From the NCBI GenBank assembly GCA_019359175.1, contig JAHHHU010000003.1, positions 186,001 to 250,000 of the forward strand: DNA of 64,000 bases. Direction: 5' to 3'. The position numbers and the translations under genes are program-made. The stretch comes from Phormidium tanganyikae FI6-MK23. GTDB taxonomy: Bacteria; Cyanobacteriota; Cyanobacteriia; Leptolyngbyales; Leptolyngbyaceae. The notes below the pieces were generated by a model, which did no database searches, had not been told where the DNA came from, and saw nothing but the letters and a program-made list of their open reading frames with translations. How positions within the stretch are numbered: position 1 is the first letter of the stretch; the number at the start of each line of letters is the position of its first letter. Positions 6,817-8,042 of the stretch are shown piece by piece.

Positions 6817-7275
6817 ATGAAACGTGGACAACTTTACGCTTTTGTTACAGGAATTTTCTTTTTATCCCTGTCCATTTTAGGATTTATTCCCCAGCTACAG
6901 CATCCGATCAATGCGATCGAAGTTCACAACGGGCTTGAAATCCAATTGGGATATCTCTTCGGTCTGTTCCCAACAAATCCAGTGCTAAATACGGTGTATG
7001 CGATCGTTGGAATTTTGGGCTTAGTTAGCTCGATCGGTTTGGGCGGTTCGCGGTTCTATGGTCGCGGATTGTTTCAGTTCTTTGGAGTGCTGGCATTTCT
7101 TGGATCATTAGAACCCACCAACACATTCTTCGGATTTATGCCGCTGTTTGGTAGCAATGCTGTTTTGTATGGGCTGATGTCGGTTGTGTCGTTCTACTTT
7201 GGATTTATTGATTCGCCTGGATTGTTAGAGATTGCGGTTCAACCGCCAGAGAATGCAATTGCGATCGAGAAATAA
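6817..7275 (+). CDS. DUF4383-like four-helix membrane protein
   Basis: 152 residues from the ATG at 6817 (MKRGQLYAF). The frame is open further upstream, but the extra 68 codons have no membrane-protein character, run through the gltB promoter region and lack a convincing ribosome site. Four hydrophobic segments lie around residues 4-22, 53-70, 78-96 and 105-125. The phrase LFGLFPTNPVLNTVYAIVGILGL matches the pattern of DUF4383 proteins (GLFPVN-x-x-HN-x-VH), a family of unknown function in the cytoplasmic membrane. It is divergent from gltB and probably a single-gene unit. Confidence 0.8.
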   Translation: MKRGQLYAFVTGIFFLSLSILGFIPQLQHPINAIEVHNGLEIQLGYLFGLFPTNPVLNTVYAIVGILGLVSSIGLGGSRFYGRGLFQFFGVLAFLGSLEPTNTFFGFMPLFGSNAVLYGLMSVVSFYFGFIDSPGLLEIAVQPPENAIAIEK

Positions 7276-7343
7276 CGCGCAGATACTAAGGATCGTGGAT
7301 TAAATAACCTGTAAACTTTCGATTCGTCGTCGCTGAGATCTTC

Positions 7344-7423
7344 GCCCCCTAAAACCCCCATTTTGGGGACTTTGAAACGGAAGGTCTTGGCTTAAAGTCC
7401 CCCAGAATGGGGGTTTTAGGGGC
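7344..7423. repeat. MITE-like inverted repeat, copy 1 of 3
   Basis: 80 bases. The left arm begins GCCCCCTAAAACCCCC and continues to a GGGGACTTTGAA end; the right arm is its near-perfect reverse complement, ending GGGGGTTTTAGGGGC. Two related copies are at 17700-17804 and 55188-55272. The arms contain an internal smaller hairpin (CCCCCATTTTGGGG). No open reading frame lies inside. Such elements are common in filamentous cyanobacteria and are presumably non-autonomous. Confidence 0.85.
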
Positions 7424-7484
7424 AAAAGCCGCCTCAACCGGAGCGACTCGCTTCTTGGCGAAAGGGCAAGAAGTTACACCTTAA

Positions 7485-7556
7485 TAAATGCCCAATACTA
7501 AAAATCGAGGCTAACTCTTTACGGAGTTAGCCTCGATTTTTAGTATTGGGCATTTA
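7485..7556. repeat. Perfect 33-bp inverted repeat with 6-base loop
   Basis: Left arm 7485-7517 and right arm 7524-7556 are exact reverse complements, separated by TTTACG. There is no T-run after the stem, so it is not a standard terminator. The perfect match implies recent origin or active maintenance. It begins 61 bases after the MITE-like element. Confidence 0.95.
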
Positions 7557-7760
7557 CAGACTCAAAAATATCAATCCTGTTGTACAAGGTTGCACGATCG
7601 ACTATTGCTCCTCGGTGGTACGCGATCGCACTTCTTCAACTTGGAAATCTATGAATCCGCGATCCTACGATCTTTTTTCGTGAACCGCTTGATACAATAA
7701 AATCAATGTACAAAAACTCGACTGATTAACCGTAGATTAAGCGTATCGGGAGAAAAGGAA

Positions 7761-8042
7761 ATGCAAGCTCTCACACTGACGAACGACGATCGCACAACTG
7801 AACAACGAATTCGCCTCCGCATTCCGAAGCACTATCACCAGGAACCTGTCATTTCTCAGTTAGTCTCGCAGTATCACTTGACGGTGAATATTATCGCCGC
7901 CATTTTAGGCGCAAACGCAAAGGGCGACGGCTGGTTTGATTTGAATCTCAAAGGCAGCAGCACTAACATTCAAGCGGCATTGATTTACCTAGATGAGCTT
8001 GATCTAGAAGTGTGGCAGGGTGAAGAATCGGATGGTTGGTAA
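7761..8042 (+). CDS. NIL domain-containing protein
   Basis: 93 residues. The segment RIRLRIPKHYHQEPVISQLVSQYHLTVNIIAA followed by a GDGWFDLNLKGSSTNIQAALIYLDEL pattern is the ferredoxin-like beta-alpha-beta NIL fold, the ligand-binding module found at the end of methionine-importer ATPases and, in cyanobacteria, as free-standing small proteins. It is probably a soluble regulator or binding protein; its ligand cannot be told from sequence. The start is well supported by the ribosome site AAAAGGAA directly before the ATG. It stands alone, 65 bases before the SDR gene on the same strand. Confidence 0.85.
   Translation: MQALTLTNDDRTTEQRIRLRIPKHYHQEPVISQLVSQYHLTVNIIAAILGANAKGDGWFDLNLKGSSTNIQAALIYLDELDLEVWQGEESDGW

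Follow-up and report, generated by a model that had tools for sequence, protein, structure and literature searches.

How does a perfect hairpin of 33 base pairs come to stand between two bacterial genes, and what is it? In the window, the 64-kb stretch of Phormidium tanganyikae FI6-MK23 DNA analysed here, positions 7485-7556 form an inverted repeat whose 33-nt arms (7485-7517 and 7524-7556) are 100% complementary, all 33 of 33 positions pairing around a 6-nt loop, TTTACG. The original prediction had described the palindrome in these terms and had argued that a perfect repeat of such length is not expected by chance, and both statements were confirmed. In ten first-order Markov sequences as long as the window, the longest perfect inverted repeat had 12 bp (n=1; arms of at least 12, loop 3-12), and with the same thresholds the window held one further repeat, of 13 bp, at 357-387. 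In a 464-kb sample made up of the window and 400 kb of contigs C75 and C76 of its own genome (arms of at least 12, loop 3-20), the palindrome was the longest of 31 perfect inverted repeats, the runners-up being two of 21 bp. The predicted RNA fold of 7480-7562 reached -55.7 kcal/mol, with a z of -16.1 against 200 shuffles. Other long perfect hairpins in the 400-kb part of the sample, of 20-21 bp, lie at L134:12983-13028, L137:993-1045 and L130:15306-15350.

Three identities had been proposed for the palindrome: a recently inserted hairpin element, a small RNA with a double-stranded form, or a replication or protein-binding site. A genome-wide search for the arm and a search of related genomes had been suggested as checks, and both were run. 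In the 5.74-Mb own assembly the arm pattern (31 of the 33 arm bases, up to 3 mismatches) matched the two arms alone. With no second copy in that assembly the mobile hairpin was rejected, though a real mobile element does supply 14 bp of the left arm (see below). Among 388 genomes of the class, the 72-bp palindrome matched two, its own and G039 (28 bases at 89%, E 9.4e-4). When 7440-7600 was compared with 58 relatives, the sole other matching genome was G027, and there the match was to a MITE end only. The Rfam scan (E up to 1) returned four microRNA models, three over the stem of the MITE and one over the palindrome, all under their gathering scores. The one over the palindrome, MIR7994, scored 44.4 against a gathering score of 100, in our view because a long perfect hairpin yields such a score by itself. 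As no Rfam family matched at gathering score, a small RNA or microRNA-like identity is unsupported too. Nothing in the palindrome's position or conservation suggests a replication or protein-binding site. No new RNA, element or site is indicated by the palindrome.

The 33-bp palindrome is a composite, built from a terminator core, a MITE end in its left arm and a gene end in its right arm. The features of the locus are as follows.

6820-7275, plus strand: gene for a DUF4383 protein (open reading frame; PF14325, E 7.8e-24; start codon chosen by homology)
7283-7289, plus strand: ATAC and TAA, the outermost piece of the pre-insertion left arm, severed by the MITE; joining the flanks gives a 23-bp perfect hairpin
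7287-7289, plus strand: left target-site copy, TAA, of the target duplication
7290-7498, plus strand: MITE of 209 bp with a long internal stem (28 elements compared; two sister copies in its own genome)
7485-7517, plus strand: left arm, made of 14 bp of MITE end, TAA and 16 bp of old terminator arm
7490-7498, plus strand: the last 9 MITE bases, apparently rewritten from TCACATTCC to GCCCAATAC; each of the four changed bases is complementary to the right arm
7499-7501, plus strand: right target-site copy, TAA, of the target duplication
7506-7541, plus strand: putative terminator core, CGAGGCTAACTC-TTTACG-GAGTTAGCCTCG, then A and T5, with A5 on the other side
7524-7556, plus strand: right arm, in whose outer part a decayed minus-strand gene closes with (V)NAQY and a stop; this part probably served as template for the rewriting
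7540-7662, minus strand: decayed 3' end of a convergent gene (translation with a frame break and stops; gene intact in G003 and G006)
7761-8042, plus strand: next gene, for a NIL-domain protein (PF09383, E 5.9e-19)

The core of the palindrome has the form of an intrinsic terminator, a stable stem-loop followed by a T-run, here ATTTTT. The original prediction was mistaken in finding no T-run: T5 (7537-7541) and the matching A5 (7500-7504) both sit within the stem. Since A5 lies opposite T5, the core could act on both strands. We examined the same position in the 7 other genomes of the genus. Four carry a close orthologue of the DUF4383 gene (G003, G005, G006 and G007; 81-92% identity); of the remaining three, two hold just a distant paralogue and the third gave no match. 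Just 3' of the orthologous gene, all four genomes with a close orthologue have a shorter hairpin and a T-run, such as ATCGGGGCTA-CCTGTGA-TAGCCCCGAT-TTTTA in G006. The stems of these hairpins range from 10 to about 19 pairs; those of G006 and G007 are perfect, those of G003 and G005 imperfect. In G005 and G007 the A/T runs are also taken into the stem, as in the window. A consensus terminator scan, run on G003 and G007 alone among these relatives, called a terminator in both. The same scan of the window called none, which we put down to the T-run being paired inside the stem. Among named records, relatives of the gene were found in Cyanobacteria bacterium FACHB-63 (81%), Phormidesmis priestleyi BC1401 (63%) and Oculatella sp. 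LEGE 06141 (48%), and in Pseudanabaenaceae cyanobacterium LEGE 13415 as 16 residues at a contig end. Against the terminator reading counts G011, of another genus, where the gene is followed by a hairpin of 8 bp without a T-run and the orthologue is 63% identical. The inner palindrome is most likely the intrinsic terminator of the DUF4383 gene, conserved in position within the genus, and would be expected to terminate transcription in the cell. It resembles bidirectional intrinsic (Rho-independent) terminators in its GC-containing stem, with an A-run before and a T-run after, in lying between convergent gene ends and in its conserved position. Unlike them, this terminator, putative by sequence, has a stem that continues through the A/T runs and for 15 bp further.

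The left-hand part of that extension comes from a transposon. In the left arm, the outermost 14 bp belong to the right end of the MITE itself, and when the MITE is removed and the window's flanks are joined, a 23-bp perfect hairpin results (ATACTAAAAATCGAGGCTAACTC and its complement). The terminator stem was therefore long before the MITE inserted into it at TAA; the insertion duplicated the TAA, so that the left arm now runs into the MITE's right end. With up to 3 mismatches, the left end of the MITE was found 67 times: 33 times in G027 and 29 in G011 (both of another genus of the family), 3 times in its own genome, and 0, 0, 0 and 2 times in the four congeneric genomes covered by this search. 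The comparison set of 28 elements, fewer than these 67 matches, comprises those with both ends found by pattern in the loci examined; L066 was left out, as was L027, which has a canonical right end but unlike flanking triplets. Identical TWA triplets flank 22 of the 28, the window's included; the remaining six comprise one flanked by ATA on each side and five with differing triplets. The triplets of L002, one of the sister copies in its own genome together with L003, were read allowing for a 6-nt insertion shift. Near the same left end, PF07592 (ISAzo13-type transposase) fragments occur in L081 and L063 (E 1.3e-9 and 1e-7); no right MITE end was found within these two loci, and no complete element was seen. 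The window's copy resembles ISAzo13-type MITEs in that these are 165-328 bp long with imperfect terminal inverted repeats and mostly 3-bp TWA duplications, and share their left end with elements carrying an ISAzo13-type transposase fragment. It is unlike them in that four of its final nine bases are changed, and it may have lost its mobility.

A general preference of the MITE for terminators was considered and is unsupported. Joining the flanks gave a perfect hairpin of at least 12 bp across the site at 2 of 27 MITE sites (the 28 elements minus L013, whose flank is short) and at 1 of 243 control TWA sites, in a count made post hoc; both hairpin sites are among the three copies of its own genome, with 0 of 24 elsewhere. 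A further terminator-like hairpin, with a 15-bp perfect stem (AACGAATGAGATCGG and its complement), has one sister copy at its 3' foot (L002:1387-1432, G000:C17), and the ends of that copy are not rewritten.

The right arm has a coding origin. In both G003 and G006, the hairpin marks the end of a minus-strand gene (about 340-360 aa), whose product closes with IDIFAVQP and IDTFSVQQ, respectively. The last stretch of the window's remnant reads IDIFESVNAQY-stop, the stop coming directly after the T-run as in these relatives, and the own genome gave 0 matches to the convergent gene at E 0.001. The earlier statement that no open frame is present thus holds for intact frames, but the right arm does carry the last codons of this decayed gene. 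Because the arm reads as the relatives' gene end, it is most likely old and the hairpin one that two convergent genes had in common. That it is the older of the two arms is indicated by the ATAC left of the MITE, which still matches it, and by the in-frame gene end, with the relatives stopping at the same point. Once the convergent gene had begun to decay, the right arm may have been released from its coding constraint.

The outer right arm is 6-9 nt, or two or three codons, longer than in G003 and G006, so a part of it could have been copied in the opposite direction, from the MITE. In more distant relatives (L095 and L096) the tails of the protein vary in length, and the extra codons may therefore equally be ordinary. 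For the tail comparison L093 and L094 were used, with L095 and L096 serving for tail length only; several of the 30 tail rows, namely L097, L098, L105, L106, L111, L118 and L122, were left out as apparently of another frame or gene.

What probably turned these parts into a perfect palindrome is seen at the MITE's right end. Across the family this end is YCACRTTCC in 24 of the 27 other elements; L077 and L083 are one-base variants, and L002 is canonical after its 6-nt insertion. Both sister copies carry TCACATTCC, whereas the window's copy carries GCCCAATAC, an end present in none of the 27 other elements compared. Relative to L003, the window differs at 4 of the 9 end bases, 0 of the 71 preceding bases and 2 of 65 on the left side, with six more substitutions and a gap in the central stem (64 bases). 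All four end changes create pairs with the right arm, leaving zero mismatches. By a crude, post hoc binomial with the rate taken from the 136 bases without the central stem, a cluster of at least 4 in 9 has a probability of 5.6e-6, or 6.9e-8 if complementarity is required; including the variable central stem (8/200), the corresponding post hoc values are 2.7e-4 and 3.4e-6. Clustered changes complementary to the opposite arm, in what was before an imperfect inverted repeat, are the footprint by which a template switch is recognised; the prior state is taken here from the sister copies and not from a sister strain. Among the genomes searched, none close enough to show the intermediate, with the MITE present and its end unrewritten, was found. 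The suggestion that the palindrome must be either new or kept was apt on both counts, the terminator core being kept in position and the extension to a perfect 33 bp being new. The original prediction is thus partly supported, in this idea and not in any of the three identities proposed.

We consider it probable (about 0.8) that a terminator, a MITE insertion and an arm-to-arm templated correction, that is, quasipalindrome template switching, together explain the palindrome. The starting point would be a bidirectional terminator with a 23-bp perfect stem, 7 nt past the DUF4383 stop, between that gene and a convergent one that later decayed. Insertion of the MITE at TAA in the left arm, with duplication of the TAA, would then have produced a quasipalindrome with a perfect inner stem and a poorly matched outer part, in which 10 of the 14 bases from the MITE pair. 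The nascent strand, or one under repair, could have folded back on the inner stem, so that about 9 bases of the right arm were copied over the MITE end, before returning to its proper template in the matching TAAAT/ATTTA and leaving the perfect 33-bp palindrome. The parts such an event would use are at hand: the inner stem is strong enough to act as primer, the outer segment held the mismatches, and five matching bases, TAAAT, allow the return. The 10 of 14 matches between the sister MITE end and the right arm (chance about 3e-4) are accounted for only by the need for some matching sequence.

Template switching as the process, and its timing, we infer from these comparisons. The switch may have been a later replication error or part of gap repair at insertion, which the sequence alone does not separate. 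Transposases of this type leave a recessed 3' end that fills the target-duplication gap. Here, the gap-filling 3' end on the right would belong to the terminator strand, which is self-complementary, and any snap-back synthesis from it would begin at the TAA copy. We regard it as a tentative and rather unlikely variant that the end was rewritten in the act of insertion, the strand priming on its own stem, copying TTA-GTATTGGGC and re-entering the MITE at TAAAT. The rewritten tract is consistent with a snap-back start at the TAA copy, the base next to the TAA being unchanged because it already matched. If this were true, repair of an insertion in a hairpin arm would take the hairpin as template and destroy the transposon end, and terminators could in one step disarm the elements that insert into them.

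The direction of copying also has to be weighed. Copying could have run mainly in reverse, the right arm being written from a MITE end that was already aberrant. The right arm does extend two or three codons beyond G003 and G006 where it meets the MITE-derived bases, and 10 of its 14 positions there were already like the MITE end. Against this account, the GCCCAATAC end is absent from the 27 other elements compared. The old left flank matches GTAT in the right arm, and that arm retains its reading frame, with V, Q and the stop in place. Right-to-left copying is favoured by this reading frame and by the match of ATAC, left of the MITE, to the right arm; we consider mainly reverse copying improbable, though the MITE may have been the source for some of the outer right arm.

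Alternatively, the four changes could be independent point mutations, kept because selection favoured a longer terminator stem. Every one of the four changes does improve pairing, and over a 102-nt stretch the predicted energy falls from -37.0 kcal/mol with the sister copy's end, where the stem is imperfect, to -58.2 kcal/mol now. Even with the sister end the inner stem would still have about 19-21 pairs, no shorter than those of the orthologues, and the adjacent 71 bp are without any other change, both of which speak against selection, and we judge this explanation very improbable. An assembly or amplification artefact mirroring one arm onto the other is the least probable of all, given a short site of 72 bp lying about 193 kb inside a 354-kb contig, with both flanks aligning with relatives, and given that such an artefact would not be expected to halt in the MITE's own TAAAT with the target duplication in register.

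Templated correction of the left arm from the right, the reading we prefer, has a known counterpart. In quasipalindrome mutation, as set out in PMC7202029, a polymerase that has stalled at an imperfect inverted repeat takes the nascent strand as template instead of the regular one; synthesis then returns, leaving the repeat perfect or more nearly so. The same paper describes the process for E. coli and cites the Ripley model, the thyA hotspot and lacZ QP reporters. The window is like the E. coli case, as described there, in that an imperfect inverted repeat was made perfect by clustered changes apparently templated by the other arm, and unlike it in that the event is reconstructed by comparison and the mismatched arm came from a transposon end. 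Template switching has also been proposed, in PMC8794818, as a source of perfect RNA hairpins. We found no report in the open-access library searched of a template switch combined with an intrinsic terminator.

The locus is thus most likely an ordinary terminator with an unusual recent history. It adds a clear new example of a mutational process that is already known, of which the palindrome would be a small yet well-resolved trace. Long perfect hairpins are often read as signs of selection or as unknown RNAs. The hairpin of the window can be resolved base by base: part of it is an old terminator, part an insertion flanked by its target duplication, and part a templated patch whose earlier state is known and whose donor is probable. 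It offers a clear natural example of probable template switching at a bacterial terminator and suggests that other hairpin-borne transposon ends be searched for similar patches.

The MITE has a further repeat history of its own. Its central stem (7341-7426, CCCCCTAAAACCCCCATTTTGGGG...) belongs to a common repeat in the own genome, where at least 37 of at least 41 matches cover just the first 28-55 query bases, in or beside the central stem; these counts are lower bounds, with 40 of 137 candidate matches scored. Between the window's copy and L003, the arms of this stem differ concertedly at one pair, TAAAA/TTTTA against TAAAT/ATTTA, as if they had been mutually corrected.
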